DNA of 26,166 bases from a virus. The translations under genes and the position numbers were made by a program. The stretch spans positions 1 to 26,166 of the IMG/VR virus record IMGVR_UViG_3300010412_000070; one strand, 5' to 3'. Positions within the stretch are counted from its first letter, which is position 1; every line of letters starts with the position of its first letter. The notes under the pieces were generated by a model, which saw nothing but the letters and a program-made list of their open reading frames with translations, was not told the origin of the DNA and searched no databases. Of the stretch, positions 1-26,166 are shown piece by piece.

Positions 1-1
1 C

Positions 2-577
2 GACAAAGGCGCAGGCACAACCGATAGGTTGCATGATTTTATAATTGCGCAAGGTTGGGAACACAACAACGACGAAGCGGATTATGGATTTTTCAATTTA
101 ATCGCAATCCGCGCGTTTCAAATGAAACAACGATTAGACGTTATCGAACGTTTGGTCGGCGCATTCGAAAAAGCAGACATTATTATCACGCATTCGAACG
201 GCGCGTTTTTCACAACGCAAGCCCTGCATTGTTTGCCGAAACAATACCGCCGTTCGAAAATCGTCATTCACATTTCGCCCGCGCTTGACGCTGACACGCC
301 CATTCCCGACGCGGTTCATTCGCAACTGGTTTTATGCACGAAACACGATGGATGGGTACGACTTTCGTCGTATTTGTTTTGCCATCCGTGGGGGCGCATG
401 GGCGCAATCGGTTACACCGACGGCGATTCACGCAACACGAATATTTTGGACAACACCATCAAAGGGCATTCCAAATGGTTCAACAAGGCGAACGTCGAAC
501 GCACATGGAATTATTGTTATCGATTCACCATGCAAAATGATTTTATACTGTCCAAACACGGAGCATTGCCAACATGA
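2..577 (+). CDS. alpha/beta-hydrolase-like protein, 5' partial
   Basis: The reading frame is open from base 2, with no stop before the TTG at 29, so the gene very probably begins upstream of the window. Counting from the TTG codon, a nucleophile-elbow-like THSNGA lies at residues 54-59 (candidate Ser56) after a hydrophobic strand (ADIII). It is followed by a second hydrophobic strand ending in HISPALD, then HDGW and GHSKWF, which could supply the acid and the histidine of a Ser-Asp/His triad. The elbow is H-S-N-G and not the usual G-x-S-x-G, so the assignment is only to the fold. The substrate is unknown; an esterase or lipase-like role is possible. The stop overlaps the next start (ATGA at 574-577), which suggests translational coupling with the lipoprotein gene. 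There is no visible signal peptide, but the N-terminus is missing. Confidence 0.6.
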   Translation, partial: DKGAGTTDRLHDFIIAQGWEHNNDEADYGFFNLIAIRAFQMKQRLDVIERLVGAFEKADIIITHSNGAFFTTQALHCLPKQYRRSKIVIHISPALDADTPIPDAVHSQLVLCTKHDGWVRLSSYLFCHPWGRMGAIGYTDGDSRNTNILDNTIKGHSKWFNKANVERTWNYCYRFTMQNDFILSKHGALPT

Positions 578-879
578 AAACGTTTTTCGTAATTCTGATT
601 TTATTGTTATTGACTGCTTGCCGAACGCAATACGAACTGACGATTGAACGCGACGGTTTGACCATCAAAGGAAAGTCGTCGTCATATCGCGAATACGCGC
701 TGTTTTCTATGGAATACAATCCCGCGACGCATGACATCTCATTGATTGCGGTCGGCGTGACCGATGACACCGCCGAAGTCGTGCGCGATGTCGTCGCGGT
801 CGGCGGCGACGTAGTGCGCGATGTTGTCGCACCCGTTCACGGCGAACAAGACCCGCGATATACAAATGATTCCAATTAA
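574..879 (+). CDS. small phage lipoprotein
   Basis: A 101-residue protein that starts with a classic lipoprotein signal: Met-Lys, a hydrophobic run at residues 4-13, and the lipobox LTAC at 13-16 with Cys16 as the lipidation site. The residue after Cys is Arg, so no Asp(+2) inner-membrane retention signal is present and outer-membrane sorting is expected in a Gram-negative cell. The mature part is short and ends with an internal duplication, VVRDVVA repeated about 13 residues apart (around residues 67-87), which is hydrophobic enough to associate with membrane. A role in lysis (o-spanin-like) or superinfection exclusion is conceivable, but no proline-rich spanin signature and no partner i-spanin gene are visible. 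It overlaps the hydrolase gene upstream by 4 bases and the QueE-like gene downstream by 14 bases. Confidence 0.75.
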   Translation: MKTFFVILILLLLTACRTQYELTIERDGLTIKGKSSSYREYALFSMEYNPATHDISLIAVGVTDDTAEVVRDVVAVGGDVVRDVVAPVHGEQDPRYTNDSN

Positions 880-1459
880 CAGCATTCGGCAGTCATTCCA
901 GTTTGAGGGCGAATTTGCGGGCGTGCCGTCAATCACAATTACGTTGCAGCACGACACGTCGAACCCGGCGCACAAGGTCGACAACATCGACGACGCAACG
1001 CATTATTCGGATTTTTATTGGACGTTTGCCAATCGCGCGGCGATTTATCGATACGTCAATGCATTGTCAGGAATGCGCGTTCGCCACGTCATCATTAACG
1101 GCGACGAACCGTTTTCATTGAACGAGCAGGAATTAATTCGATTCGTCGGCGAATTAATGACAAAACGCTATTCGGTGCAAATCGTCACGCCTTGCACGTT
1201 GCCAATCCCGAAGGTTTTGCCGCGCATGGCGTTCATTACCGGCAAAACGTTCGAAGGCTCAAAACCCGAAATCATGTATGACTGCGACGAAATCATTCAT
1301 TCGGTCAGCAAAAAAAGCGACATCGCGGTTCTGGAAAAGTTGATTGCAGACATGCCAGACCCAAACGTTTGGTTGCAACCTGTTAGCCGAAAAAATAACG
1401 CGGTACAATTATGTATGGAAACGTGTTTTCAACACGGTTTCAAATTATCGACAATTTAG
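866..1459 (+). CDS. QueE-like protein lacking radical-SAM cysteines
   Basis: A 197-residue protein starting at ATG 866. An ATG at 821 in the same frame adds 15 residues, but the QueE-type N-terminus begins at 866. The order of motifs follows 7-carboxy-7-deazaguanine synthase (QueE): INSIRQSFQFEGEFAGVPS at 4-22 matches the QueE INEIFxSxQGEGxxAGxPS region, VIINGDEP at 75-82 matches the GGEP region, then a VQIVTPCT strand, and near the C-terminus VWLQPVS followed by CFQHGFKLST. The CxxxCxxC motif that binds the 4Fe-4S cluster should follow residue 27. That stretch contains no cysteine, and GGEP has become GDEP. The C-terminal Q-x-H-K of QueE is also absent before the stop. Radical-SAM catalysis therefore looks impossible. 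The protein may be a decayed or repurposed relative of phage 7-deazaguanine DNA-modification enzymes. It lies just upstream of the terminase genes. Confidence 0.7.
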   Translation: MIPINSIRQSFQFEGEFAGVPSITITLQHDTSNPAHKVDNIDDATHYSDFYWTFANRAAIYRYVNALSGMRVRHVIINGDEPFSLNEQELIRFVGELMTKRYSVQIVTPCTLPIPKVLPRMAFITGKTFEGSKPEIMYDCDEIIHSVSKKSDIAVLEKLIADMPDPNVWLQPVSRKNNAVQLCMETCFQHGFKLSTI

Positions 1460-1501
1460 ACACAACGACATAGCGCATTTTGGATTTGCGCACCTTACGG
1501 C

Positions 1502-1514
1502 AGGAGCAATAAGG
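1502..1514 (+). promoter_or_regulatory. ribosome binding site for small terminase
   Basis: AGGAG at 1502-1506 lies 9 bases before the ATG at 1516, with a second purine block AAGG nearer the start. This supports the 1516 start. The preceding 42 bases (1460-1501) contain no recognisable promoter. Confidence 0.6.
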
Positions 1515-1515
1515 C

Positions 1516-1908
1516 ATGGCACGTTCACCATTTAAAGCAACCGATGAACATCGGAACATTGTTCATTCGGCAAGCGGCATGGGTTTACCTCAAGAAATGA
1601 TTTGCTATTTAATCATGGATTCAAAAGGCAAACCGATTACCGAAAAAACCTTGCGAAAACATTTCAGGCACGAATTGGATACCGGCATTGCAAATGCGCG
1701 CGTGAAAATATTCCAAACCGCGTTCAAAGTTGCCACCGATTCGAAGCACCCCGCATTCGCGACAATGAATATTTGGCTACAAAAAACCCAATGCGGCATG
1801 CGCGAAGGCATGAAATTAGAATTGACCGGCAGCGGCGGCGCGCCATTGAATCAAACGCCGCAATTCGTCGTCAATGTAGGCGACACGTCAATACCGAAAG
1901 AAACATGA
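1516..1908 (+). CDS. terS: terminase small subunit
   Basis: A 130-residue protein immediately upstream of, and overlapping (ATGA at 1905-1908), the large terminase gene. The N-terminal part holds a helix-turn-helix-like segment at about 13-55 that includes GMGLPQEMICYLI and TEKTLRKHFRHEL. This arrangement is typical of phage small terminases of the family with the TLRKH-R-EL signature. It is followed by a helix (residues 60-75) and ATMNIWLQKTQCGMREGM, the usual conserved tail of this family. The C-terminus is variable and poor in motifs. The subunit would bind the packaging initiation site of the concatemeric DNA and recruit the large subunit. Function is inferred from the motif pattern and gene position. 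Confidence 0.85.
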   Translation: MARSPFKATDEHRNIVHSASGMGLPQEMICYLIMDSKGKPITEKTLRKHFRHELDTGIANARVKIFQTAFKVATDSKHPAFATMNIWLQKTQCGMREGMKLELTGSGGAPLNQTPQFVVNVGDTSIPKET

Positions 1909-3365
1909 TTCTTTCAGAATGCACATTGCATGATGGCCCGCAAAGCATAGCGTTTCAAAGTCCTGCAACTGAAATTTTGTACGGCGGCGCAGCGGGCGGC
2001 GGCAAATCGTTCCTGATTCGAATTTCATTAATCATTTGGTGTTTGGCGGTTCCCGGTTTGCAATGCTATTTGTTTCGGCGCACGTTTCGCGAATTGTTCA
2101 TGAATCACATGGAAGGCCCGTCGTCGTTTCCGCTGTTGTTAAATCCGTGGATTAAAAACAAACAGGTCAACATCAATTACCAATCGATGAAAATCATGTT
2201 TGCGAACGGTTCGGTCATTCACTTGTGCAATTGCCAATATGAAAAAAACCGCTTGAATTATCACGGCGCGGAAATTCACGTTTTAGCCATTGACGAATTG
2301 ACGACGTTCACCGCGACGATTTATTACTATTTACGCGGTCGCGTTCGCATGGTCGGTTTAGATTTACCGCCAAATTGTCCGTGGGCATTCCCGCGTATTT
2401 TGTGCGGCACAAATCCCGGTGGCATCGGTCACACGTTCGCAAAAGCCGATTGGGTCACGTCGGCAAATCCTTATGAAATTCACCGCGCAAGCGAAGACGA
2501 CGGCGGCATGTTGCGTCAATATATCCCTGCACGATTGACAGACAACCCGACGTTGATGCGTGAAGACCCCGGTTACATCGGTCGATTGGCAGGATTGGGT
2601 TCGCCCGAATTGGTGCGCGCGTTGCGCGAAGGCTCGTGGGACATTTTAGAAGGCGCAATGTTTACCGACGTTTGGGACGAAGCAGTCAATTGGATTGACC
2701 CGTTCCCGTTGCCGCAATCATGGCGTTTGACGCGTTCGTTCGATTGGGGTTCATCGAAGCCGTTTTCGGTCGGTTGGTGGGCAACATGCGACGGCACACA
2801 ACCGACCGACGAAGACGGAAATCGCATTTTGGATTACACTATACCGGCAAAATCGAAGATTCGCATTGCCGAGTGGTACGGATGGAACGGAAAGGCAAAT
2901 CAAGGTTGCAAATTATTGCCGAAACAAATTGCAAAAGGTATTCTGGAACGTGAACAGAAATTGGGCATTTTGGGACAGGTATACCCCGGCGCAGCAGACA
3001 GCGCAATATTCGACACCGACAGGGGCGAAAGCATCGCGACGAAAATGGAAGCGGTCAGGCTGAACGGTTCATCTGCAAAGGTGAAATTCAAACCGGCAAG
3101 CAAAGGGCCGGGTTCGCGAGTTCGTGGATGGGAAGTCGTTCGCGAAATGTTGAAAGCCGCACAACAACGCCCGATGGAAGCACCCGCCCTTTTAATCTTC
3201 AACCGTTGCACAAATTTCCGCAGAACCATTCCCGAATTACCGCGCGACGAAACGAAAACCGACGACATTAATACCGAGTCGGAAGACCACATCGCCGACG
3301 AAACACGCTATGAATTGACCTTGCCGTCTTTCGGTGCGACAAGGGCGCAAATTAAGGGAGCATAA
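1905..3365 (+). CDS. terL: terminase large subunit (packaging ATPase/nuclease)
   Basis: A 486-residue protein starting at ATG 1905. The same frame is open upstream to 1602, but that stretch is only the shadow of the small terminase gene, and the start overlapping its stop fits phage practice. The ATPase domain shows Walker A GGAAGGGKS at 27-35, Walker B VLAIDE at 126-131 with catalytic Glu131, and the coupling motif CGTNPGG at 167-173. The nuclease domain has the expected three acidic positions: RSFDWG (Asp280), GAADSAIFD (Asp365) and EDHIADE (Asp461 or Asp465). All motor and nuclease residues look intact, so the enzyme should be active. It drives DNA translocation through the portal, encoded immediately downstream, and cuts genome ends. 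Confidence 0.96.
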   Translation: MILSECTLHDGPQSIAFQSPATEILYGGAAGGGKSFLIRISLIIWCLAVPGLQCYLFRRTFRELFMNHMEGPSSFPLLLNPWIKNKQVNINYQSMKIMFANGSVIHLCNCQYEKNRLNYHGAEIHVLAIDELTTFTATIYYYLRGRVRMVGLDLPPNCPWAFPRILCGTNPGGIGHTFAKADWVTSANPYEIHRASEDDGGMLRQYIPARLTDNPTLMREDPGYIGRLAGLGSPELVRALREGSWDILEGAMFTDVWDEAVNWIDPFPLPQSWRLTRSFDWGSSKPFSVGWWATCDGTQPTDEDGNRILDYTIPAKSKIRIAEWYGWNGKANQGCKLLPKQIAKGILEREQKLGILGQVYPGAADSAIFDTDRGESIATKMEAVRLNGSSAKVKFKPASKGPGSRVRGWEVVREMLKAAQQRPMEAPALLIFNRCTNFRRTIPELPRDETKTDDINTESEDHIADETRYELTLPSFGATRAQIKGA

Positions 3366-3367
3366 AA

Positions 3368-4783
3368 ATGCCTGTTAATACCCCGCACAATGAACACTCG
3401 GATATGACAATCCGTTGGCAACGTTGTCGCGATGTTGTTTCGGGTTTGGATGCAATCAAAGAAGGCGGGCGTTTATATTTGCCCGCGCCGACAGGATTGG
3501 ATGATGAAGAATACGAACATTACCAACAACGCGCGACGTTTTTCAATGCAACGCAACGAACAATCGATGCAATGTCGGGTTTGATTTTCCGCAAAGACCC
3601 GAAATACGATTTAGAAGACCAATATTTATATTTGCTTGACCGCGCGACCGCTGACGGCATGCCAATGACAGATTTAGCAGTCAAAGCAGTTGAAGAAGTC
3701 ATGGTCGTTGGGCGCGTGTCATTGTTGGTCGATTTTCCGTTAGTTGAAAACCCCGAAACACGAACGCGCGCGCAAGCCGAAGCCGACGGCGACCGACCAT
3801 TCGTTGCTGTTTATCAGGGCGAAAACCTGACAAATTGGCGATACGTCATGAAAGGTTCAGAACGCATTTTACAAATGGCGGTTTTGATGGAATACGAAGA
3901 CATCATAGACCCCGAAGATAAATTCGTCGTCAAACAAAGAAAATGCTATCGCGAATTAAGCATCGAAACCGGCGTTTACACGCAAACGATGTGGCGTTGG
4001 GACGAAAACAAAAGAAAATATATTCCAGAAGAACCCATCACGCCGTTGATGAACAATCAACCGATGAAACGAATTCCGCTTTACGTCGCGTCGATTTTTG
4101 GCGAAACGGTCGATGTCCAAAAACCGCCGTTTTTGGATTTGGTCGATGTCAACATCGCCCATTACAGGAATTCCGCAGATTACGAACGCGGTTTGCATTT
4201 CACAGGCAACCCGATGCCGGTCATCACCGGATGGGACGCAGGCGAAACGACCGTGACAATCGGTTCTGAACGCGCATTGATTTTGGAATCGCCACAAGCA
4301 AAAGCGTTTTACATGGAATTGACCGGCGACATGGGCGCATTGAAAGAAGCGTTAAAAGACAAAAAAGCAGACATGGCATCGATGGGAACGAAATTGTTGC
4401 TTGAAGAAACGCGCGGCGGTGTCGAAGCCGCAGAAACAGCCGCGATTCGTCGCGCAGGCGAAAATTCGGTGTTGTCGGCAATCGCGTCGTCGGTGTCGCG
4501 CGTTATCACTCACGCGTTGGAAACAATGGTCGAATGGTCAGGCGGCAATCCCGAAGAAGTGCATTACGAATTGAATCGCGATTATTTGCCGTTCGCGATG
4601 AGTGCCGACACTATCACCGCATTGATGGGCGCATGGCAACAAGGCGTTATTTCGAAAGAAACGCTGTTCCAAAAATTGCAGGAAGGCGAAGCAATCCCGC
4701 AAGGCGTGGATTACGAACGCGACCAAGAATTAGTCGCGGAAGAAGGAATGTTGAATTTGCCGGTCGTAACAACGGCGGAATGA
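3368..4783 (+). CDS. portal protein (DUF4055-type)
   Basis: A 471-residue protein directly after the large terminase, preceded by the strong ribosome binding site AAGGGAG at 3354-3360. The N-terminal region (about 20-60) with RCRDVVSGLDAIKEGG and GRLYLPAP, then FFNATQRTIDAMSGLIFRK at about 58-76, is typical of DUF4055-type portals, and the length of 450-500 residues also fits. A long helical segment around residues 330-380 (ALKEALKDKKADMASMG, then VEAAETAAIRRAGENS) would form the portal stem and crown. It forms the dodecameric DNA gate at one capsid vertex and partners with the terminase and the neck proteins. The assignment rests on order and signature; no sequence search was run. Confidence 0.88.
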   Translation: MPVNTPHNEHSDMTIRWQRCRDVVSGLDAIKEGGRLYLPAPTGLDDEEYEHYQQRATFFNATQRTIDAMSGLIFRKDPKYDLEDQYLYLLDRATADGMPMTDLAVKAVEEVMVVGRVSLLVDFPLVENPETRTRAQAEADGDRPFVAVYQGENLTNWRYVMKGSERILQMAVLMEYEDIIDPEDKFVVKQRKCYRELSIETGVYTQTMWRWDENKRKYIPEEPITPLMNNQPMKRIPLYVASIFGETVDVQKPPFLDLVDVNIAHYRNSADYERGLHFTGNPMPVITGWDAGETTVTIGSERALILESPQAKAFYMELTGDMGALKEALKDKKADMASMGTKLLLEETRGGVEAAETAAIRRAGENSVLSAIASSVSRVITHALETMVEWSGGNPEEVHYELNRDYLPFAMSADTITALMGAWQQGVISKETLFQKLQEGEAIPQGVDYERDQELVAEEGMLNLPVVTTAE

Positions 4784-4784: not shown

Positions 4785-6551
4785 ATGACATCGCCTGCGA
4801 ATCTTTATCGTTCGTTGTTTTCGCAATCGGTCGCGAAGATTGGTTATGCCAATCGAACGTCGCGCGAAGTGTTGGTTTTCCTTGACCAAATGGCAATCGA
4901 CATAGAAGACCAAATTAAAGCAGCATCGACCGATTGGTCGAAACGACGATTGGAGCAAATGCTCGGCGAGGTTCGCGTCATCACGCGCAGCGTAAGAGAC
5001 AAAATGTTTACGCACGTTTCAGAAGAAGCGCGCGTTATCGCCGAAGCCGAAGCCCGCATGGTCGTTAAAGGGTTAAAACAAATAGCACCGATAGCGGCGA
5101 CCGCGTCGTTGTCGGTATCGAAATTAAAGGCAATCGTCGAAACAACGCCGTTCGATGGTCGCATCATGAAAGATTGGTTTGCCGGTTGGGAACAATCCAC
5201 GTTCGAAGCGATGAAACAGCAAGTCTGGCTAGGATATGCAGAAGGCGAATCAGCCGCGCAAATCGCAAAACGTTTAATCGGCACAGTTCCCGACGATTTG
5301 TTGTTGGGCAAATCCGCGCCCGGTCGCAAAGGCAAAGGCGGCACACCGCGCCGTTATCGCGGCATCATGGTTGCATCACGACGCAACGCGCGCACGATTG
5401 CACGAACCGCGATTGTTCACGCGACAAATCAAGCGCGCATGGAAGTGTACAGGGCAAACGACGACGTGATTTCAATGGTCGAATGGGACGCAACGTTAGA
5501 CCATGCAACCTGTTCAGTGTGTGGCAGTTTAGACGGCAGGGTGTTTTCGTTGAAATTTACGAATCGCGTACCGCCCGCGCACCCGAATTGCCGTTGCGCA
5601 ATTTTGCCGGTCGTGAAAAAAGAATTCCTGCCAGACGATTTACCCGCAGGCGAAAAAGCAAGCATCGAAGGCCCGATAGACGCGCGCACGACATACGAAG
5701 ATTGGTTGCGCACACAATCACATGAAAACGTTTCGAAGGTGTTGGGCAAACAAAAAGCGAAATTGTTTTTAGACGGCAAACTGAAAATGGAACGGTTCAT
5801 CGACAATCAGGATTTTGAATTGACGTTGGACGAACTGAAAGCGTTCAATCCCGCAGAATGGCGATTGGCGTTCGGCACGAAAAACAACCCGATTATTCCG
5901 TCTGATTTCGAGCGCGAAGATTTGTTGAGCAACGCAATTGATTTGTGGGAAACGGTCGATGACATTCAAGGCGCGGATTTAATAGAAACGTTGCAAGAAT
6001 GGCAATCGCCGCGCTTTCAAGACATCAACGAATACATGCGCGCAAAAGCGGCGGGCGAAACCGCGTTTCAGAAATTTGTCGAAGAATTGGAAGTTCACGC
6101 GGTGCTTGAAGAATTGCATGCATACGCATTGATTTTAGAAGAAGCGTTCGAAGCAGGATTAGCGCACCAAATCGAAAAACCAATGATGGTGTTTCGTGGC
6201 GTATTAGGCAAAGTGGAACAAACTTTAACTGCTATGCGCGTTGGCGACACGTTCATGGACGCGGGTTTTCTCGCGACGACAATCGACCGCGAAGTCGCTT
6301 TAGGTTTTGCCGAAAAAATGGGCGGTGTCGTTTCAATGTTGGAAATCGAATTACCGACAGGAACGCGCGTGTTACCGTTGAACGCGAAATCGCCCCGGTC
6401 AGGACTTGCATTGTTGGACGAATGGGAAAAAGAAATATTGCTGCAAAACGAAGCCCAATTGCAATTAACACAAATCAGGCATGATAAAATCGAATCGAAC
6501 GGCATCATGACCGATGCTGTCATTTACGTTTTCAAATTGTTGAACCCATGA
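4785..6551 (+). CDS. MuF-type minor head protein with C-terminal ADP-ribosyltransferase domain
   Basis: A 588-residue protein that starts one base after the portal stop. Residues about 120-280 are a MuF (phage Mu gpF-like) head morphogenesis domain: ARTIARTAIVHATNQARMEV, then TCSVCGSLDGRVF with Cys243 and Cys246, and PPAHPNCRCAILP with His266, Cys269 and Cys271, a probable metal-binding set. Residues about 465-588 look like a VIP2-type R-S-E ADP-ribosyltransferase: VFRG (Arg471), GFLATT at 494-499 in the STS position, and EKEILL with Glu548 and Glu550 as the catalytic E-x-E. The triad looks intact. MuF domains carry effectors into the head in known polymorphic toxin systems, so this enzyme may be packaged and injected, acting like T4 Alt. 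Target unknown. The segment 281-460 is a helical linker of no recognised family. Confidence 0.88.
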   Translation: MTSPANLYRSLFSQSVAKIGYANRTSREVLVFLDQMAIDIEDQIKAASTDWSKRRLEQMLGEVRVITRSVRDKMFTHVSEEARVIAEAEARMVVKGLKQIAPIAATASLSVSKLKAIVETTPFDGRIMKDWFAGWEQSTFEAMKQQVWLGYAEGESAAQIAKRLIGTVPDDLLLGKSAPGRKGKGGTPRRYRGIMVASRRNARTIARTAIVHATNQARMEVYRANDDVISMVEWDATLDHATCSVCGSLDGRVFSLKFTNRVPPAHPNCRCAILPVVKKEFLPDDLPAGEKASIEGPIDARTTYEDWLRTQSHENVSKVLGKQKAKLFLDGKLKMERFIDNQDFELTLDELKAFNPAEWRLAFGTKNNPIIPSDFEREDLLSNAIDLWETVDDIQGADLIETLQEWQSPRFQDINEYMRAKAAGETAFQKFVEELEVHAVLEELHAYALILEEAFEAGLAHQIEKPMMVFRGVLGKVEQTLTAMRVGDTFMDAGFLATTIDREVALGFAEKMGGVVSMLEIELPTGTRVLPLNAKSPRSGLALLDEWEKEILLQNEAQLQLTQIRHDKIESNGIMTDAVIYVFKLLNP

Positions 6552-6751: not shown

Positions 6752-7016
6752 ACGATTCAATGATTGGCGTTGCCCGGTATGTACGCAAAACGGCATCGAC
6801 CGGCGCACGTTGGTTTTGCGGTTCACAAATATTAAACTTATTGACGGTTGCAAATTAGACGTTGATTCGTCAACCGTCGAAACGATTGCGCGTTGCGGAA
6901 CGTGCAATACAAAAGTTGCAATGTTTCACCCCGATTTAGGTTGGCGAACGTTGCGGATTGTCACAAATCACGGAGCAAGGAAAGACGATGGATTACAAAG
7001 AATGGTTAAAAACTGA
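6744..7016 (+). CDS. small zinc-ribbon-like hypothetical protein
   Basis: A 90-residue protein with two CxxC pairs, WRCPVC (Cys10, Cys13) and RCGTC (Cys51, Cys54), spaced as in a zinc ribbon. Between them are alternating hydrophobic residues compatible with beta strands. It overlaps the previous gene by 8 bases and the scaffold gene by 29 bases. The ribosome binding site is a weak purine run. No family is recognised. Location between the minor head protein and the scaffold suggests a procapsid or packaging accessory, or a small nucleic-acid-binding protein. Confidence 0.65.
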   Translation: MLERFNDWRCPVCTQNGIDRRTLVLRFTNIKLIDGCKLDVDSSTVETIARCGTCNTKVAMFHPDLGWRTLRIVTNHGARKDDGLQRMVKN

Positions 7017-7701
7017 CGAAGGCAAAGCGGCGATTCAACCGTTAATCGCGCAAGCAATTAACGATTATGAAAAAACCGAAGTCGCCGGTTTGAAAAAAAA
7101 CCGCGACGACGCGCTGAAAGAGAAAGACAAACTTGCCGAACGGCTGAAAAAGTTCGAAGGCATCGACCCTGACAAAATTCAGGACGTTATCGCAAAAGCG
7201 CAAAAAGCCGAAGAAGATAGAATGAAATCAGCGGGCGAATGGGAAAAATTAGACGAACAGCGCAAAATCGCGCACCAAAAAGAAATCGACAAATTGACGA
7301 AACAAATCGAAGATTTGAAAAAGGCGAACGACAACTTTTTGGTCGAAACGTCAATCGGCGCAGCAATCCGCGAAGCGAAAATCGCACCCCACGCGGTTGA
7401 TTTGGTTTCAGCATACGTCGGGCAAAAAATCGCGATTGTCGATGTCGACGGCAAACGGCAAGTGCGCGTCGGCGATGATGACGTAAGCAATTTTTTGAAA
7501 AAATTCGTCGAATCAGACGACGGCAAACATTACACGTTGGCTGATACGAATACCGGCGGCAACGCAAGCGGCGGCGGCGGGTTCAAAAATGCCGGTTCGA
7601 ATCCGTGGGCAAAAGATTCGTTCAACGTCACCGAACAGATGAAAATCAAACGCGAAAAACCAGACTTAGCCAAACGTTTGCAGGCGCAAGCGGGGCAATA
7701 G
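6988..7701 (+). CDS. capsid scaffolding protein
   Basis: A 237-residue protein with the start set at ATG 6988, which has the strong ribosome binding site AAGGAAAG at 6977-6984; an upstream in-frame ATG at 6958 lacks one. The first 120 residues are charged and heptad-like (coiled coil), including LKKNRDDALKEKDKLAERLK and repeated Lys/Glu runs. A small folded part follows (IREAKIAPHAVDLVSAYVG), then a Gly-rich linker and a short basic C-terminal helix. This build is typical of phage scaffolds encoded just before the major capsid gene; the C-terminal helix usually contacts the shell. It ends with TAG, one of only two amber stops in the window. Confidence 0.85.
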   Translation: MDYKEWLKTDEGKAAIQPLIAQAINDYEKTEVAGLKKNRDDALKEKDKLAERLKKFEGIDPDKIQDVIAKAQKAEEDRMKSAGEWEKLDEQRKIAHQKEIDKLTKQIEDLKKANDNFLVETSIGAAIREAKIAPHAVDLVSAYVGQKIAIVDVDGKRQVRVGDDDVSNFLKKFVESDDGKHYTLADTNTGGNASGGGGFKNAGSNPWAKDSFNVTEQMKIKREKPDLAKRLQAQAGQ

Positions 7702-7834: not shown

Positions 7835-8842
7835 ATGGCACAAGTGCAATTAGCAGACATCATTGAACCTGAATTGTTCACCGACTATGTACGTCAGCGC
7901 ACAACCGAACTTTCAGCTTTTTTCGCGTCAGGCATTATTCAGCAAACCGATTTGATGAATCAATTGGTTGCTGACGGGTCGACTACCTTTAACGTTCCGT
8001 TCTGGAACGCAACCGCATCAGATGAACCGAACGTTGGTTCTGACGCGCCGGGTACGACTTCGACACCAAAGAAAATCACCGCAGCATCGCAAGTCGGCAT
8101 CAAACAGTATCGCAACCAATCTTGGTCAGCGATGGATTTGGTCGCCGCAGTCGCGGGTTCCGACCCGATGAACGAAATCGTCAACAACGTTGCTTCTTAT
8201 TGGGCGCGCGTGTTGAACAAAAATGCGCTGCAAATTCTGCAAGGCATCATTGCAGATAACATCGCAAACGATTCGGGCGACATGGTTTATTCCATCGCGA
8301 CCGACGCGGCATTGCCGGTATTGGCAGCAGAAACCGTTTCGCCAGACGCTATCATTTCAGCATGGGCAACGATGGGCGACCATTCAGGCGATTTGGCAGG
8401 CATGGCAATGCATTCGACGGTTTACCACAACTTGCAAAAACAAGACGTGATTACGTTCCGACCCGCTTCTGAGCAGAACGTCATGATTCCGCAATATCTC
8501 GGCAAAGATGTTGTTGTCGATGACACGATGCCCGCAATTGCAGGTACGAACCGAATCACTTATTGGACGGCGTTGTTTGGTCGTGGCGCATTCGGATACG
8601 GCGAAGGCAATCCACGTTTGGCGACAGAAGTCGACCGCATCCCGGCAGCGGGCAACGGCGCAGGTCAAGAAGTGCTGTTTTCGCGCAGGCATTTCGGCAT
8701 TCACCCCGGCGGGTTCAAATGGCTATCGGGTTCGATGGCAGGCACGACACCGACGAACGCGGAACTGGCATTGGCTGCGAACTGGGACAGAGTATTCGAC
8801 CGCAAGAATATTCCAATCGCATTGCTGAAAACCAACGCGTAA
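7835..8842 (+). CDS. major capsid protein
   Basis: A 335-residue protein directly following the scaffold gene, with its own leader, a putative promoter and a good ribosome binding site (TAGGAGA, about 9 bases before ATG). The N-terminus (LADIIEPELFTDYVRQRTTELSAFF) and the middle (ITAASQVGIKQYRNQSWS, AMDLVAAVAGSDP) match the coat-protein pattern of an HK97-fold family about 330-350 residues long. In this family a helix with E-F-x-x-Y is followed by a VPFWN strand. The C-terminal segment with SRRHFGIHPGGFKWL is also characteristic of the family. It forms the icosahedral shell. No protease gene or cleavable delta domain is visible, so maturation probably depends on the separate scaffold. Confidence 0.92.
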   Translation: MAQVQLADIIEPELFTDYVRQRTTELSAFFASGIIQQTDLMNQLVADGSTTFNVPFWNATASDEPNVGSDAPGTTSTPKKITAASQVGIKQYRNQSWSAMDLVAAVAGSDPMNEIVNNVASYWARVLNKNALQILQGIIADNIANDSGDMVYSIATDAALPVLAAETVSPDAIISAWATMGDHSGDLAGMAMHSTVYHNLQKQDVITFRPASEQNVMIPQYLGKDVVVDDTMPAIAGTNRITYWTALFGRGAFGYGEGNPRLATEVDRIPAAGNGAGQEVLFSRRHFGIHPGGFKWLSGSMAGTTPTNAELALAANWDRVFDRKNIPIALLKTNA

Positions 8843-9037: not shown

Positions 9038-9550
9038 ATGGCAACCATTGATGCAACGGTCGGCGGCGCAAACGCAAACAGTTATATCACGGTTGCATTC
9101 GCTGATACTTTTTTGCTTGAAGAACGATTAGGCGCGGAAGCGTGGGATTCGGTCGAAAACAAAGTCAACGCGTTAATCATGGCGACGCAACAAATCGACC
9201 GATTGAATTTTGTCGGCGACCGCGCGACAGAAACGCAAACGCTATCATGGCCCCGCTATAACGCGTTATACCCTGACAACCGCATTGTGACATCGACCGA
9301 CATTCCGGTCGAAATCAAACGCGCGACCGCAGAAATGGCTTTTTGGTTATCGCAATCCGACAGGACAATCCCGCCCGACGGCGACAGCGTTTCGGAAGTT
9401 CGCGCAGGCCCGATTGCAGTCAAATTGAACAATCCCGCAGGAATCGGCGGCATCATCGACCAAATGCCCGATGTTGTAAAAGGGCATTTGAACCCATTGA
9501 TGCGGTTCGGCATGATTGGCGGCGCGTTTCGTAAGGTGCTGCGCGCGTGA
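9038..9550 (+). CDS. head-tail connector (DnaT_2/gp6-like)
   Basis: A 170-residue protein with ribosome binding site AAGGAG 8 bases before ATG. The N-terminal pattern NSYITVAFADTFLLEE, then WDSVENKVNALIMATQQIDRL, LSWPRYN and IPVEIKRATAEMAFWL, matches the family often labelled DnaT-like ssDNA-binding protein (DnaT_2) in phage genomes. By position and helical build this family is an adaptor that binds below the portal. The ssDNA-binding label is probably historical. It is the first gene of a four-gene neck block that ends at the tail tube. The stop overlaps the GTG start of the next gene. Confidence 0.8.
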   Translation: MATIDATVGGANANSYITVAFADTFLLEERLGAEAWDSVENKVNALIMATQQIDRLNFVGDRATETQTLSWPRYNALYPDNRIVTSTDIPVEIKRATAEMAFWLSQSDRTIPPDGDSVSEVRAGPIAVKLNNPAGIGGIIDQMPDVVKGHLNPLMRFGMIGGAFRKVLRA

Positions 9551-9915
9551 CTTTAAAAGCGACATTGCTAAACGCAGTCAACACGGCGTTTAATGCGGTC
9601 GGCGATGTCAAAATTGCGTTGACGATTACGCGCGAAATTTCTGGAACCTATAACCCGGCAACGTCGACGATTACCCCGGACGCGAATCAGGGGGCGACAT
9701 TTACAACCGACGCGGTCGAAGAACAATTTAGGTTCGCACAGGTTGACGGCATTACCGTGAAATCAGGCGATGTCGTCGTTTATTTTCCGTTCGCTGACGC
9801 GACATTCGAACCGACGGTGAACGACAAAGCAACGTATAAAAGCGTTGAATGGGGGATTCAAGCAGTACAGAATTATTCCGATTTATTGTACGCATTGCAT
9901 TTGACGCGTGGCTGA
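9547..9915 (+). CDS. head closure / neck protein
   Basis: A 122-residue protein starting with GTG in a GTGA overlap at 9547-9550. An ATG-free start coupled to the upstream stop is repeated at 10304. The sequence is rich in Thr/Val/Asp with alternating hydrophobics (VKIALTITREISGTYN, then VKSGDVVVYFPFADATFEP), which indicates a small beta-barrel as in head-closure proteins of the gpFII/gp16 type. Identification rests on its place between the connector and the gp10-like tail completion gene; no specific family motif is recognised. Confidence 0.6.
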   Translation: MTLKATLLNAVNTAFNAVGDVKIALTITREISGTYNPATSTITPDANQGATFTTDAVEEQFRFAQVDGITVKSGDVVVYFPFADATFEPTVNDKATYKSVEWGIQAVQNYSDLLYALHLTRG

Positions 9916-9917
9916 AA

Positions 9918-10307
9918 ATGGCAGGATTCAAACCAAAATTGAAGAACAACCAAATCGCCGAAGAATACGGACGACGCGCGCGCGCGGTTGCGTTCGAAGC
10001 CTATCGTCGCATTTTGAAAAGAACGCCCGTCAAAACAGGAGTCACCAAAGCAAATTGGCACGTTTCCGTCGGGCAACCTTCCGAATGGTTGACGAAATCG
10101 ACAACAGGGCAGGGTTTTCCAAAAATCGACCCGGAACAAGTCATGCGATTTAAAACAATCCACATTCAAAACAACGTCGCGTGGATTGGTTTATTGGAAT
10201 ACGGTTACAGCAAAAAGTCGCCCGCAGGCATGGTTCGCATAACCGCCGTTGAATTATCAAGCGGCGTGAACATAGCAGTCAATGGCAATTACGGAGCAAC
10301 GCCGTGA
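9918..10307 (+). CDS. HK97 gp10-like tail completion protein
   Basis: A 129-residue protein starting at ATG 9918, two bases after the previous stop; the same frame is open upstream to 9849, but that stretch lies inside the preceding gene. The core signature is a helix (RARAVAFEAYRRILKR), then TPVKTGVTKANWHVSVG, the TPVxTGxxxANW motif of the HK97 gp10 family, and later a WIGLLEYGYSKKSPAGM segment, the conserved LExGxSxxxPxGM element. These proteins bridge the neck and the tail tube. It ends in a GTGA overlap with the next gene. Confidence 0.85.
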   Translation: MAGFKPKLKNNQIAEEYGRRARAVAFEAYRRILKRTPVKTGVTKANWHVSVGQPSEWLTKSTTGQGFPKIDPEQVMRFKTIHIQNNVAWIGLLEYGYSKKSPAGMVRITAVELSSGVNIAVNGNYGATP

Positions 10308-10708
10308 CTTGGGCGGGCGAATTAGGAACGCTTGAATCGTATTTTAATACGAATTGGTCGACAACGCCGATTCAATTTGAAAACGTGAAATTCGACGTTC
10401 CTGCGAATCAGGCAGAATATGTCAGATTTCGCGTGTTGCCGGGGAATTCACAACTTGCCGGTTATCGTGGCGGTACAGGGCAAGGTTTGTGGCGGCATTT
10501 CGGCATTGTTCAAATCGACATTTATGTACCGATTGGGGCAGGCACGAAACGAGGGTTAGAACTGGCTGATATGGTATCGGCGTTGTTCAGGGGCAAACGA
10601 ATCAGCGACGTTTTGATTCGGGATTTGAGTATAGCCAAACCGCAAAGCGAACAGGGATATTTCCGCGTCGTTTTAACTTGCGGATACCAACGCGATTCGA
10701 TTTTATAA
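10304..10708 (+). CDS. tail terminator (DUF4128/gpU-like)
   Basis: A 134-residue protein with a GTG start coupled to the upstream stop; GGAG at 10293-10296 supports that start. The pattern ESYFNTNWSTTPIQFENVKFDVP followed by YVRFRVLPG, IVQIDIYVPIGAG, AGTKRGLELADMVSALFRG and a C-terminal FRVVLTCGYQRD strand matches the tail-terminator family (DUF4128-type). This family caps the tail tube and joins it to the neck. The order gp10-like, terminator, tube is standard for siphophages. Confidence 0.8.
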   Translation: MTWAGELGTLESYFNTNWSTTPIQFENVKFDVPANQAEYVRFRVLPGNSQLAGYRGGTGQGLWRHFGIVQIDIYVPIGAGTKRGLELADMVSALFRGKRISDVLIRDLSIAKPQSEQGYFRVVLTCGYQRDSIL

Positions 10709-16971: not shown

Positions 16972-19569
16972 ATGGTTACGAAAACAAAAATCATTTATGA
17001 CCCGTTCGAAAAACCCGACAAATGGGCATTGATTGGAAAAGTCAAACCATACCCCGTCGCGCCGATTATCCCGCCAGATAAAGCGGACGGCGCATCACCG
17101 AAAATTTTAAAAGAAACCGCACCCCGCAATATTAATTATTCCATCAGCGCGGAAGGCGCATTGATTCCGATTGCTTACGGGCGTTGTTCGCCGCCGGGTC
17201 GAATTTTCGCCGTCACGACAGACGGTTCATATTTGATTATGGGCATCGCATGGGCGGCGGGCGAATGCGCAGCAATCAACAACGTTTACGCCGACAAAAC
17301 AGCAATCGCCAGTGCGAACGTCCACAACTATTTAGGCACACCGACCGGCGCGGTCGATTCGTGGTTATCGGCGAATATTTCGGGTTATGGCGACACGTTG
17401 CCGAACATTTGTTATTCGGTCGTTCGCATCAATGCGGCAACGTATTCGTCGCCGCCGAAAATTTGGGTTGATTTGAACGCATTGAAGGTTTACGACCCGC
17501 GCACAACGTCAACCGGGTTTTCGGAAAACTTTGCTTTGCATTACCGCGACGCGGCGGTTCGCATGGGTTTTTCGGTTGACGACGCAAGCATCGAAGACAC
17601 CGCCGACAGGTGCGACACCGAAATTGGCACGACATTAACGAAACGCAGGGCGGGCGGGTTTTTTTTCGATTATGCGGTTCGCGCGGAAGACGCGTTGTTG
17701 ACGTTGGCAGAATACGCGGGCGGTTTTCATTACATCGAAGGCAATACCTGTTATCTAATTCCTGACGCGCCCGCATCGGTTACAACGTCGTTCACATGGG
17801 ACGAAACCGACGGCACGGCGATTAAAATCCGCGAAGGTTCATTCGTCCTGAAAAAGCGTTCGATGAATCAATCGCCGAACCACGTCATTGTCGAATATAC
17901 CGATTTGACGACGAAGCCGTGGCGGCGCGCATTCGCGCAAGGTTCGTTGCCGTCTGGCACGTTGCGGTCGACGCGAATCGCTATGTCGGGTTTTCACAAT
18001 TACAACACCGCGCACCGATACAGGATTGAAAAGCAAAACTATTACGACCTGATAGATTTGGAAGTCGAATTCGTATGTTTCGACGACGGTTTGGAAATGG
18101 CGGTCGGCGACGTGTTCGACATCGATTCGCCAGATTTGACCGCCAAGCAATTTCGTTGTTTGAGTATGTCGCCCGCAGAAAACGGGCAATGGAATATTTT
18201 CGGGCGCGAATACGACCCGGCAAAATACAGCGACGCAGACGAAGACGAACCGACGTTCGACGACACGACATTGCCGAACCCGTCGATTGTGCCAGACGCG
18301 CCGGTTCCGTCGTTGTCTGAGGAAAATTACCAACTGCAAAACGAAACATGGGCAACGCGCATTCACGCAGAATGGGCAGCGGTCACGGATTACCCGTACA
18401 ACCACGAATTCGAAATGCGCGCGTATGTCGGCACAGCGTTGATTGGCACAGTACGCACCGACGATTTAGAAGCAACATTCGGGCCATTGCAGGAAGCTGT
18501 TCAATACGACATCGATTTATATGTCGTCGGCGTTGGCGGCATTCGGGGCGCAAAAGGCAGCAACAGTTTAACTGCGTTGGGCAAACAAAACCCGCCCGAA
18601 TTTGGAGTCGGCGCACAATTGCGCGGTGTCGAAGCAGGCGGGCGCGTGTTCTTGAATTGGGACGCGGCGGACGATGACATTTGGGCATACGAAGTTCGAT
18701 TCGGCGGCAGCGGGCAAACATGGGCGCAAATGTCGACATTAACGCAAACCGATACGTTATGGTATACCGCCGAAACCGTGCCGCAAGGAACGTGGGATTT
18801 CAAAGTTCGCGCAATCGATTCGGTCGGCGTTGAATCGACCAACGAATTGACGTTATCAAGTTTGGAAGTCACAAGCGACGCGGACAGTTATGCGGCGGTC
18901 GATGCAACCATAGCGGTCGATACCGGCAACTTAACCAACATGACATTATCGGGCGTTGAATATTTGCCCGACGACGGCACATCATGGAACACGTTATTTC
19001 CAAACGCCATGAATACCTACACGAACCCGCTAATCACTTACGGCGGAAGTTTCACAACCCAAGTTTGGTCGCAGGAACACGACATCGGCGCAATCGTTTC
19101 GGCGAATTTTCAGATGTCGACGAACGTTCAAGAATATGTCGGCACGGTCGATTACACGTTGCAGATTTCCGACACGTCGGGCGGGCCATACGACGATTAT
19201 TCCGTTTTGTCGGTGAACGCGTCGGGTCGTTACGTTCGCCTGAAAGTCATCGGCTTGACGACCGACCGTTGGGTATTGCGCCCGGAATATTTTCACATCA
19301 CCGCATTAGTGAACACGATTACCAAAGAAGGTGAAGGCACAAGCAGTTCGTCGACTTATGTAAAAATTACATTGGACAGGGCATATTCGAAAGTCGTCAG
19401 TTTGAAAATTCAGCCTGTCAGTAGCGGCGGCGCGGAAGATTTGACAGGCGTTCCCGACGACATCATTTTGAACGATGCGGGTTATACGACGTTCAAGGTT
19501 TATGTTTTCAAAGACGGCGTTGGACAAGTTGAGCGAGATTTCTATTACACGGCAAGAGTGATTAAGTAA
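16972..19569 (+). CDS. tail tip / host specificity protein (J-like)
   Basis: An 865-residue protein starting at the base after the previous stop. The N-terminal half has hub-like features: SAEGALIPIAYGRCSPPG near 57-74, and WVDLNALKVYDPRTTS, then a GFSVDDASIEDTADRCD segment of the kind found in lambda J-type and tail-hub proteins. Residues about 446-536 and 543-623 resemble fibronectin type III-like beta domains (the second with VFLNWDAADDDIWAYEVRF and WDFKVRAIDSVGVES). The region near 725-765 (VDYTLQISDTSGGPYDDY, then ASGRYVRLKVIG) resembles a discoidin/galactose-binding fold. The tip would plug the tube and contact the host receptor. Two unusual features are the near-absence of Cys and the length, shorter than lambda J. 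Confidence 0.8.
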   Translation: MVTKTKIIYDPFEKPDKWALIGKVKPYPVAPIIPPDKADGASPKILKETAPRNINYSISAEGALIPIAYGRCSPPGRIFAVTTDGSYLIMGIAWAAGECAAINNVYADKTAIASANVHNYLGTPTGAVDSWLSANISGYGDTLPNICYSVVRINAATYSSPPKIWVDLNALKVYDPRTTSTGFSENFALHYRDAAVRMGFSVDDASIEDTADRCDTEIGTTLTKRRAGGFFFDYAVRAEDALLTLAEYAGGFHYIEGNTCYLIPDAPASVTTSFTWDETDGTAIKIREGSFVLKKRSMNQSPNHVIVEYTDLTTKPWRRAFAQGSLPSGTLRSTRIAMSGFHNYNTAHRYRIEKQNYYDLIDLEVEFVCFDDGLEMAVGDVFDIDSPDLTAKQFRCLSMSPAENGQWNIFGREYDPAKYSDADEDEPTFDDTTLPNPSIVPDAPVPSLSEENYQLQNETWATRIHAEWAAVTDYPYNHEFEMRAYVGTALIGTVRTDDLEATFGPLQEAVQYDIDLYVVGVGGIRGAKGSNSLTALGKQNPPEFGVGAQLRGVEAGGRVFLNWDAADDDIWAYEVRFGGSGQTWAQMSTLTQTDTLWYTAETVPQGTWDFKVRAIDSVGVESTNELTLSSLEVTSDADSYAAVDATIAVDTGNLTNMTLSGVEYLPDDGTSWNTLFPNAMNTYTNPLITYGGSFTTQVWSQEHDIGAIVSANFQMSTNVQEYVGTVDYTLQISDTSGGPYDDYSVLSVNASGRYVRLKVIGLTTDRWVLRPEYFHITALVNTITKEGEGTSSSSTYVKITLDRAYSKVVSLKIQPVSSGGAEDLTGVPDDIILNDAGYTTFKVYVFKDGVGQVERDFYYTARVIK

Positions 19570-22690: not shown

Positions 22691-22691
22691 C

Positions 22692-22744: not shown

Positions 22745-22948
22745 ATGAGCAACGAACACGAAATGGATAAGGCAACACAAGCGAAATATCTTGCCAATCC
22801 TGAAACAATTCAACTGGCTATCGATGCCGCCGAACGTCGTTTAGAACAAGCGCATTTCAAGGCGAAACATGCGTTTTATGCGGCGAAGGTTGCGACGTTG
22901 ACCAAACTTCAAAAAGCCGCGAAAGCGGCGGGTTTATTGGGAGAATAA
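22745..22948 (+). CDS. small helical hypothetical protein
   Basis: A 67-residue protein with ATG 22745 chosen because GAGGAA lies about 9 bases upstream; a TTG at 22730 in the same frame is less likely. It is almost entirely helical (IQLAIDAAERRLEQAHFKAK, then HAFYAAKVATLTKLQKAAKA), so probably a short coiled coil. No family is recognised. It is the first gene after the promoter-like motif and abuts the next gene with a 3-base gap. Confidence 0.65.
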   Translation: MSNEHEMDKATQAKYLANPETIQLAIDAAERRLEQAHFKAKHAFYAAKVATLTKLQKAAKAAGLLGE

Positions 22949-22951
22949 ATC

Positions 22952-23377: not shown

Positions 23378-23385
23378 TAATTGAT

Positions 23386-23405
23386 AGCCGCCCCAACGGG
23401 CGGCT
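23386..23405 (+). terminator. GC-rich hairpin between small tail genes
   Basis: AGCCGCCC (23386-23393) and GGGCGGCT (23398-23405) form a perfect 8-bp stem with the loop CAAC, 8 bases after the stop at 23377. Only one extra T (23406) follows, so intrinsic termination would be weak. GGGAGG at 23407-23412, immediately after the stem, is the ribosome binding site of the next gene, so this hairpin could also affect its translation. Confidence 0.55.
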
Positions 23406-23417
23406 TGGGAGGGCGAC

Positions 23418-23798
23418 ATGCCAATAGGTCGTCTGGAATTCCATGACGCAGACGCGAATCAATGGGTTACTGAGCGTCCCGCAAACGAGGATGGCATTCG
23501 TTTAATTGGCGCAGGAAAAACAGGTGTCATCGAAATTCTGTATTCCGAAATTCCCGGCGGTTCGTGGAACGCAAACCGACTTGCCAAATTCGCCGAACGC
23601 GCGCAACAACTTATCGATTATCGCATACCGTTAAACGACCCCGAATTAGCCGACGACCCACACGGCATCAATGGCGCAGACCCCGCACGACCCGATTTTT
23701 TTTGGGATTCGGGCGATTTAGTTGCCCGCCCCGTCATCATCAGCAATGTTACATGGGACGGCGCGCACATTAAATTCACATTGAGCAGGGCGGGTTAA
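23418..23798 (+). CDS. hypothetical protein preceding large fibre
   Basis: A 126-residue protein with a strong ribosome binding site (GGGAGG) 5 bases before ATG. The sequence is acidic and rich in Asp/Trp/Pro (FHDADANQWVTERPANEDG, PLNDPELADDPHGING), with a beta-strand ending (PVIISNVTWDGAHIKFTLS). It has no signal, repeats or membrane segments, and I do not recognise a family. The TAATG overlap with the large fibre gene indicates coupled translation, so it may be a partner or chaperone of that fibre. Confidence 0.6.
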   Translation: MPIGRLEFHDADANQWVTERPANEDGIRLIGAGKTGVIEILYSEIPGGSWNANRLAKFAERAQQLIDYRIPLNDPELADDPHGINGADPARPDFFWDSGDLVARPVIISNVTWDGAHIKFTLSRAG

Positions 23799-26166
23799 TG
23801 TCAGCACTTTCGTTTTGGTATGTTCGCGGAAACCTCGGTACAAGCGACCCGCAATCGGTTTGGACAAATGATGCAAACGCATTCGACACGCTGACAAATA
23901 CTTGGGCGACGACAACCACGACGGGTTCGAAAACGACCAATTATTTGCTCGGCAAAGGAGCGCAAATATCAAGCGGCGGGCCGGTCGGACTGATAACAAA
24001 AGTTGAATTACAACTAAGCGGTTATTCAACGACCGCGAACAGCACGATTTACGCGACAGCATACACGACGGGTTTAGGGCAGGAATTAGGCACATGTTCG
24101 CTTGTGCGCACAACGCAGGGGCTTGGCACAGCGGTTGAAATCAGCGCACCGTCAGGCGGTTGGAACCACGACGACTTAGAAAACATAGAAGTTAAAATTT
24201 ATTGTACGCGTGATGGTTCGGATACGTGTTACGTTGCAGGCGTAAGGCTTCAAGTCTCGTTTCTTGTTATCAACAGATTTTTAGGTGCCGAATCGGGCGG
24301 CATGTATGAAACCGATTCGTTTTCCGGTTTTTCCACGACAGGGACAGGCGGCACACGGCATTCGGGCGCGTATGCTTATTATTCCGGCGCGTCAGGCGAC
24401 AATTTCCGTTTTCAACAATTTAAAAATGTAACTGCCAAAGACACTGGTAACTTATTTGGCGCGTGGGTAAAACGCGGCGCAAACGGGTCGTTTCAATTCA
24501 CGTTTTATGAAACTGGCGAAACAACATTCAGTTGTCGCGTGACGGTTTTAGGCACAGGCGCAATTCGTGTTTACAACGCGAACGGTTCGCAAATCGGTTC
24601 TGACACAGCAACAGGAACAATACCAGAAAACACTTACGTCGCACTTGAAGTTTCTTGGCTTTACGGAACAAACGCCGGAATAGTGGTATACGTTGACGGC
24701 ACATCGGTATTCAGTGCAACGAATCAGGATTTGTCCAACAGTTCAAGTCTGTATTCCACCGACATTTCCATGCAGGCAAGCTATCTATGTTATTTCGACG
24801 ATTTATATTTTGCGTCCGGCGCATCGACAGACGAATGTCTGACCGATTGGGGTCTTGCCACCTACATCACAAACAACACCGGCGCGTCGCCGGACAATGG
24901 CGCAGCACCGCTTGACGCGGGAACGTGGGATTTAACTTCTGAACTTGCATTCAATGATTCGAACATAGCAAGTTACGACGGCGGGTTATGGGCGGCATAT
25001 CTGCGCATGGACGGGGGCGGCGCAGAAAACAATGGCGGGCCATACGCTGATTCGAATGTAACCGGCGTTGTTGCCGCGCATAAATTCGTTGGCAGGTTGT
25101 CACGCGGCGGCGGTGGCGGAACGCTGCATTATGTACATCTTGGTCGCGCAAGTTCAACGCTTTTCATGTTGACCACTTCTGCCGATTTGGCATTGACGAC
25201 ATCGATTACAACGTATGAATTTTACGAAGCGAATTATTTGCCGACGATGAAATCGACCGGCTATAACATGGGCGCAATCGGTTATTCCAAAGATTCAGGC
25301 GGTCGGGATTACGACATCGCGGAAGGCGTTTACATGATGATGTATATTCCCGCCGCGACGGGCTTCACCGGCACAGTTGCGATGACGTTCAACAACCCGA
25401 CGTATTCGGCATCGGGTACGCATACCCCGAATTTTTCTGCTACCGCGTCGCCGGTTTTATCGAACATCACGCAAAGCGCAAGCGGCAAACAAACGTTCGC
25501 CGGTTCGGGCAATCCGATATTGACAAAAATCGCTCAGGCAATCAGCGGCGAATTGGGTTTTATTGGTTCGGCAAATCCCGTTTTGCCTTCTTTGAATTTC
25601 GACGTTTCAGGCGAATTGGGATTTTACGCGACCGCCGACGCAACATTGCAAAACGTCACGATTGATTCGGCAGGTACGCACACACCGAATTTTTCAGCCA
25701 CCGCAGATTTGACATTAATCAAGTTGATATTTGACGCGACCGGCAGCACGACCGAAACGTTCGACGGCTCGGCAGATGTCACGCTGAACAAAAACGTATT
25801 CGACGCAATCGGCGCATTGTCGTTTGATGCAACCGCCGATTTCAATTTAAACAACATCGACATCGCGGCAAACGGCGCGTTAAATTTTGTGGCATCGTCC
25901 GCGCTTTCATTAACTCCTATTGTTTACACAGGGAATGGCAAAATTGGGTTTTTGGGCGCGGGCGATTTCACAATGCCGTTTTTGACAATCAGCGCGTCAG
26001 GCAAACAATCATTCAACGGCACAGCATCGTTTGACGTGCCATTGTTCGCATTCGAAGCGAACGGCGAATTGGGCTTTTTTGCATCGACAGTTTTTGATTT
26101 GAACCCAATCGCAATCGCCGCAATCGGGCAACAAGGCGGCGTAAACGGTCAAGCGGTCATTACCTT
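23798..26166 (+). CDS. large tail fibre/adhesin with C-terminal repeats, 3' partial
   Basis: The frame is open from ATG 23798 (TAATG overlap) to the window end, at least 789 residues. No stop is seen, so the gene continues. Residues 1-155 form a beta-rich N-terminal module (SFWYVRGNLGTSDPQSVW, ending VAGVRLQVSFLV). Residues about 168-345 resemble a LamG/concanavalin-like domain (FSGFSTTGTGGTRHSGAY, GAWVKRGANGSFQFTF, then YLCYFDDLYFASG). A second beta region spans about 368-525. From residue 537 a tandem array of 21-23-residue units runs to the window end. Trimeric fibres and bacterial adhesins often use such an architecture. The lectin-like fold suggests glycan binding, which is inference from pattern only. 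Confidence 0.75.
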   Translation, partial: MSALSFWYVRGNLGTSDPQSVWTNDANAFDTLTNTWATTTTTGSKTTNYLLGKGAQISSGGPVGLITKVELQLSGYSTTANSTIYATAYTTGLGQELGTCSLVRTTQGLGTAVEISAPSGGWNHDDLENIEVKIYCTRDGSDTCYVAGVRLQVSFLVINRFLGAESGGMYETDSFSGFSTTGTGGTRHSGAYAYYSGASGDNFRFQQFKNVTAKDTGNLFGAWVKRGANGSFQFTFYETGETTFSCRVTVLGTGAIRVYNANGSQIGSDTATGTIPENTYVALEVSWLYGTNAGIVVYVDGTSVFSATNQDLSNSSSLYSTDISMQASYLCYFDDLYFASGASTDECLTDWGLATYITNNTGASPDNGAAPLDAGTWDLTSELAFNDSNIASYDGGLWAAYLRMDGGGAENNGGPYADSNVTGVVAAHKFVGRLSRGGGGGTLHYVHLGRASSTLFMLTTSADLALTTSITTYEFYEANYLPTMKSTGYNMGAIGYSKDSGGRDYDIAEGVYMMMYIPAATGFTGTVAMTFNNPTYSASGTHTPNFSATASPVLSNITQSASGKQTFAGSGNPILTKIAQAISGELGFIGSANPVLPSLNFDVSGELGFYATADATLQNVTIDSAGTHTPNFSATADLTLIKLIFDATGSTTETFDGSADVTLNKNVFDAIGALSFDATADFNLNNIDIAANGALNFVASSALSLTPIVYTGNGKIGFLGAGDFTMPFLTISASGKQSFNGTASFDVPLFAFEANGELGFFASTVFDLNPIAIAAIGQQGGVNGQAVIT
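25406..26166 (+). repeat. tandem 21-23-residue repeats in the fibre gene
   Basis: About eleven and a half units, each of the form x-A-x-G-x-x-x-F-x-A/G-S/T-A-x-x-x-L-x-x-I/L-x-F. Examples are ISGELGFIGSANPVLPSLNF and ANGELGFFASTVFDLNPIAI. Two units carry a 2-residue extension (GTHTPNF and GSTTETF types). At DNA level the copies have diverged; the closest pair lies near 25412-25443 and 25672-25703, sharing GAATTTTTC. Confidence 0.75.

Follow-up and report, generated by a model that had tools for sequence, protein, structure and literature searches.

A 26-kb viral contig without GATC or any of at least seven further palindromes probably reflects exposure to several restriction systems

The tetranucleotide GATC is entirely absent from a viral contig of 26,166 nucleotides (nt), IMG/VR record IMGVR_UViG_3300010412_000070, the whole of which (positions 1 to 26,166) was analysed here and is referred to as the window. 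The record is open-ended and the statement covers these 26 kilobases (kb) only; GATC is palindromic, and its absence hence holds for both strands. To judge by its predicted proteins, the contig carries the packaging, head and tail genes of a tailed double-stranded DNA (dsDNA) phage of the siphophage type. In all, it has lost eight or more distinct specificities, GATC among them. In our reading this breadth of site loss is unusual, judged on the loci compared here and not on a survey of phage genomes. We infer that the phage lineage has probably long met hosts with several Type II restriction–modification (R–M) systems, including a GATC-specific one. An original prediction, made by reading the sequence, had stated that the window contains no GATC where about 100 copies would be expected, and had seen in this a long exposure to hosts with GATC methylation or restriction; the absence itself was read correctly, but the other eliminated palindromes and the rarity of AG/CT were missed.

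GATC counts and codon junctions

A script count returned 0 GATC in the window, and the null models, which give 88 to 96, bear out the predicted expectation of about 100. The maximal-order Markov estimate from trinucleotide and dinucleotide counts is 88.0. Comparison with a codon-preserving shuffle, which had been proposed as a check and was run here on the window, gives 89.8 ± 7.6 sites with a minimum of 73 (200 draws, 31 reading frames). Under the strictest null, in which the amino acids, the codon usage and all codon-junction dinucleotides are kept, the expectation is 96.3 ± 7.3 and the minimum 80 (200 draws); GATC is the most depleted 4-mer under this null (z = −13), followed by CGGA (z = −7) and GGCC (z = −6). 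The shuffles that preserve codons and junctions thus rule out composition or codon usage as the cause of the zero count. With 200 draws per shuffle and minima of 73 and 80 sites, an origin in chance, composition, codon usage or assembly artefact, in favour of which nothing was found, has a negligible probability; as to the last of these, a library without GATC fragments would be reasoned to split contigs at each site, which would make a contig of 26 kb impossible.

The loss is visible at the codon junctions. Aspartate before a codon starting with C is written GAC 58 times and never GAT, as the original prediction had held, in contrast to asparagine before C, for which AAC (41) and AAT (42) are both used. 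Its statement that isoleucine after G avoids ATC is likewise borne out (ATT 102, ATA 14, ATC 0). CGA or GGA is used for arginine or glycine before TC in none of 51 cases, and of 47 leucines after aspartate 46 are written TTR, with mixed leucine codons after asparagine, tyrosine and phenylalanine. Both synonymous exits are taken where aspartate meets C, namely GAC for GAT and TTR for CTN leucine codons. These junction counts indicate that GATC was lost from each of the three codon phases and that several kinds of synonymous change were involved.

Other palindromic sites missing from the window

The coding sequences were scanned for 417 palindromic words against the strictest null, 310 of them with an expectation of at least 8. 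When elimination is defined as an observed-to-expected ratio (O/E) below 0.1 with an expectation of at least 15, it extends to GATC (0/96), GRCGYC (0/55), RGCGCY (0/27), GDGCHC (0/22) and GGWCC (0/20). Further words with zero counts are CCGCGG (14 expected), GCCGGC (13), CGTACG (13) and CCWGG (12), and one copy each is left of YGGCCR (28 expected) and GGYRCC (27). GGCC is lowered to 22 against 55 expected and AGCT to 3 against 14. The scanned words partly overlap (GDGCHC with GKGCMC), so the specificities, GATC included, are counted only as a lower bound. Most of the missing words are sequences recognized by known Type II enzymes, such as GRCGYC by AcyI/BsaHI, RGCGCY by HaeII, GGWCC by AvaII and CCGCGG by SacII. 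With a fixed site list applied to pieces of 17–20 kb, 8 sites are eliminated in the window; 8 or more are eliminated in seven of the pieces compared with it, all of them from genomes of the Pyrinomonadaceae.

With so many other palindromes missing, no single GATC-specific cause suffices. Selection against Dam/MboI/DpnI-type sites, as originally proposed, is well supported insofar as it means selection against a restriction site, but GATC methylation or restriction is only part of the matter. The loss of GATC fits restriction by hosts met over a long time, but with seven or more further palindromes of Type II kind gone as well, several systems are likelier, and the pressure looks like that of a battery of restriction systems and not just of GATC methylation. 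Dam methylation on its own would exert no selection against GATC.

GATC in related viruses

The median O/E of GATC is about 0.93 over 164 relatives by terminase or capsid, found mainly by terminase. Only three of these are also purged, L137 (0/59), L153 (1/64) and L157 (1/41), all terminase-related virus records with 0–1 GATC in 14–21 kb and ordinary dinucleotides; the 52-kb record of L153 holds 5 GATC in total over three pieces. Inheritance of the loss from the terminase clade was rejected, as GATC is normal in most relatives. That it is normal in most and purged in three indicates that the loss arises repeatedly and by lineage, as expected of a response to local restriction. No close relative was found by capsid and portal in viral contigs or by capsid in genome contigs, and the window has no match to phage records at the DNA level.

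The loss of GATC is therefore word-specific, palindromic, spread over all codon phases, unexplained by composition or codon usage and rare among relatives, all of which argues for selection against a restriction site. In the explanation that we prefer, the hosts, or the host community, would carry several Type II R–M systems, one of them GATC-specific, and every unmethylated site would expose incoming phage DNA to cutting. Site-free mutants would then be favoured until the whole set of palindromes had vanished, mostly through synonymous change.

Dinucleotide signature and site depletion in the Pyrinomonadaceae

The symmetric rho values of the window are 0.41 for AG/CT, 0.48 for TA, 1.76 for CG and 1.52 for AA/TT. 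These odd dinucleotides run the whole length of the window and through all codon positions, and are weaker yet present in its 778 nt of noncoding DNA. The rarity of AG/CT (rho of CT on the + strand, 0.28) is below that of every related or candidate-host sequence listed. Among the named genomes having a terminase relative, one contig has a window-like profile, L103 of the Pyrinomonadaceae metagenome-assembled genome cam-2 (G001), with AG/CT 0.64, TA 0.50, CG 1.79 and AA/TT 1.51. By dinucleotide distance over 229 sequences, seven of the ten nearest to the window are Pyrinomonadaceae and the rest are the virus contigs L130/L132 and L060. The distance of the family to the window is 0.10–0.13, with other phyla thinly sampled; it exceeds the 0.03 by which one half of the window differs from the other and thus denotes likeness to the family, not identity. 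When 166 sequences, each 11 kb or longer, are ranked by the window's missing sites, 29 of the 30 lowest are Pyrinomonadaceae, whether GATC is included or omitted (Mann–Whitney p of about 3e-16, uncorrected for the choice of genomes low in CGATCG and for several pieces per genome).

The signature invites another explanation, in which the phage drifted towards the composition of a host whose mutation and repair processes, such as the deamination of methylated C within GATC and GGCC, erase these words from all the DNA in its cells. It is found in coding and noncoding DNA alike, it resembles that of Pyrinomonadaceae chromosomes, which are also without GGCC and often GATC, and the near-constant TTR for leucine after aspartate is the product expected of C-to-T change. 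However, a null that preserves dinucleotides still gives 96 GATC, what has been lost are specific palindromes with a mixed base content, the 58 GAC codons before C (against no GAT) cannot be products of GATC deamination, and G001, with its similar signature, has normal GATC (450/488). We regard such drift as unlikely.

Whole-genome site searches in the family used the six-base probes CGATCG, GCGATC and CGGCCG instead of GATC. In G001, GGCC occurs 0 times against 264 expected in 81 kb (L103 and L169–L171), and CGGCCG is absent from the whole 5.7-megabase (Mb) assembly. GRCGYC, TTCGAA, TGATCA and AGATCT are likewise at zero in the 81 kb of this genome. CGGCCG is also at zero in two more of the 119 family genomes and below 20 in over a dozen others. 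Some members of the family are depleted in GATC (G051, 59/583; G027, 17/221; G022, 20/206). In G049 (L214, L231), CGATCG occurs only 8 times in 4.6 Mb, although the pieces read have a near-normal GATC count; avoidance of the six-base word is there separate from that of GATC.

GATC-type enzyme genes and a possible host assignment

The GATC-depleted genome G021 encodes a methylase whose best match is DpnII methylase 1 (2dpm, E = 2e-53), followed by a nuclease-like protein that matches MutH (4e-9) and Sau3AI (7e-6). G019 has a similar methylase beside a DpnII-family fragment at a contig end, with the remainder of a DpnII-family protein on another contig, and the two methylases share the same neighbour gene of the radical S-adenosylmethionine (SAM) type. 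By similarity, both gene pairs are candidate GATC-type cassettes. The chromosomal sites are alike in G021 (L250) and G019 (L244/L248), with the methylase beside a MutH/Sau3AI-like nuclease in the former and a DpnII-family fragment in the latter; the differing partners may point to cassette exchange of GATC restriction genes. GATC-poor members with a GATC-type nuclease are G017, G019, G021 and G037; in most GATC-poor genomes of the family no such gene was found. Together, these genes suggest an enzymatic cause of the GATC depletion in the family. DpnI, present in five family genomes, was rejected as the agent there: its carrier G001, with the matching signature, keeps normal GATC.

MutH-family genes, found in 15 of the 119 Pyrinomonadaceae genomes, bring to mind counterselection by mismatch repair, in which unmethylated GATC is nicked by a MutH-like enzyme, a mechanism put forward for enterobacteriophages (Deschavanne and Radman, 1991, as cited in PMC4687349). 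GATC is indeed the strongest signal in the window, but nicking at GATC leaves the absence of GRCGYC, RGCGCY, GDGCHC, GGWCC and others unexplained, and the MutH-like gene of G021 adjoins a DpnII-like methylase in the arrangement of an R–M cassette. As an account of the window it is very improbable.

Restriction by several Type II systems remains the preferred explanation, and the hosts concerned may be Pyrinomonadaceae-like Acidobacteriota, an assignment drawn from composition and the missing-site set to which we give about an even chance. Terminase relatives occur in the family at 41% identity (G001) and 54% (G002, on a short contig). A number of observations weigh against restriction by such hosts. 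The genomes were picked partly for low CGATCG, which favours the match, and in a blind rank correlation across all palindromes the Pyrinomonadaceae did not stand out. The exact set of missing sites is matched by no sampled genome: GGCC, near zero in the matching genomes, is merely lowered in the window (22 against 55), and G051, whose set of sites comes nearest, retains GRCGYC (121/317). A capsid search in the 119 Pyrinomonadaceae genomes was empty, and no host, spacer or close relative ties the phage to any bacterium. DpnII- or MutH-family nucleases were counted in 4 of the 15 family genomes poor in GATC and in 15 of the remaining 104; the excess is weak and the assemblies are incomplete. One DpnI carrier, G001, has normal GATC.

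More tentatively, and with less confidence than in the host assignment, it is conceivable that in a Pyrinomonadaceae clade and its phages many Type II palindromes have been purged from chromosomes and viruses alike. The wider purged set would then comprise GGCC, GATC (about 10-fold down in some members), GRCGYC, RGCGCY, GDGCHC, TTCGAA and TCGCGA, and the purge might stem from restriction that is unusually persistent or leaky, or from some process to which all DNA in the cell is subject.

Gene content of the window

All genes described here lie on the + strand. The first open reading frame (ORF), 29..577, is of unknown function and without Pfam, PHROGs or PADLOC match. It is followed by a QueE-like protein (821..1459; TIGR04322, E = 3e-19, with a score far under the cut-off of that model; PDB 6nhl_A, E = 8e-14). 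A small ORF at 1516..1908 (phrog_12540, unknown function, E = 1e-7) may encode the small terminase from its position alone, as it precedes the terminase large subunit at 1908..3365 (phrog_979/phrog_2; 51–58% identity to aligned viral relatives), the frame of which was taken from 1908 although the ORF itself opens farther upstream. The head genes are those for the portal protein (3368..4783; phrog_145, E = 8e-124), the head morphogenesis protein (4785..6551; phrog_241, E = 9e-89), the head scaffolding protein (6988..7701, scanned from 6958; phrog_206, E = 7e-33) and the major head protein (7835..8842; phrog_247, E = 1e-107), which has at most 46% identity to phage records. Head–tail connector genes (adaptor, head closure, tail completion and tail terminator; phrog_477, 161, 169 and 179) occupy 9038..10708 and lead to a tail protein (10722..11651; phrog_290, E = 9e-62), the tail tape measure protein (12507..16130; phrog_1716, E = 1e-50) and a central tail fibre or host-specificity protein (16972..19569; phrog_31, E = 1e-29). 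A long ORF without PHROGs match (23798..26164, from the ORF list with open ends) runs past the end of the record. No tRNA is present in the 26,166 nt, and PADLOC found no defence or methylase gene among nine uncharacterized ORFs of the window. No replication gene was recognized among the window genes, and part of the phage genome is therefore probably missing.

The QueE-like protein lacks the radical-SAM CxxxCxxC motif, and the cysteine stretch of QueE is unmatched in the comparison with 6nhl_A; the protein appears to be a copy of QueE that has degenerated or been repurposed. The Queuovirinae, for example Pseudomonas phage JG012, have deazaguanine-modified DNA and are related to the window phage through the major head protein (about 41% identity) and share with it a QueE-like gene. 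They differ from it in that the catalytic cysteines are missing here, that no other deazaguanine gene is seen in the window and that modified DNA would be expected to make site avoidance needless. Deazaguanine modification of the window phage was rejected on account of the absent CxxxCxxC cysteines.

Discussion

Site avoidance by phages is already known; what is new here is the breadth of the loss and the lead to a host. Elimination of Type II sites is complete or near complete in about one-tenth of viral genomes, and GATC is under expectation in 46 of 46 phages whose hosts have Type IIM GATC enzymes (Rusinov et al., 2018, PMC6286503). The window resembles the dsDNA phages of that study in the elimination of palindromic Type II sites (O/E below 0.1 at an expectation above 15) and in GATC as a typical target. 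It differs from them in having lost its eight or more specificities within one 26-kb stretch. The staphylococcal phage phiAGO1.3, with few GATC and no GGNCC, interpreted as escape from Sau3A and Sau96I, is a comparable case, although it is a small podovirus with known hosts and retains two GATC (PMC6346686). Among bacteria, inter-strain DNA exchange or MutH action has been proposed as the reason for the avoidance of GATC over whole chromosomes, and genomes with DpnI/DpnII-type systems show chromosomal GATC depletion (Rusinov et al., 2015, PMC4687349), as does part of the Pyrinomonadaceae; those genomes have annotated systems, whereas in the Pyrinomonadaceae enzyme genes were found in some depleted genomes only.

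The window is thus a clear example from nature of an uncultured phage from which the sites of several restriction enzymes have been completely removed. If the phage is indeed linked to these hosts, lists of missing sites could help to find the hosts of metagenomic phages, and the present list directs attention to a soil-associated family with chromosomes that themselves lack whole restriction palindromes. Should the purge extend to a clade and its phages alike, the missing sites of a phage would be a fingerprint of the restriction repertoire of its hosts.

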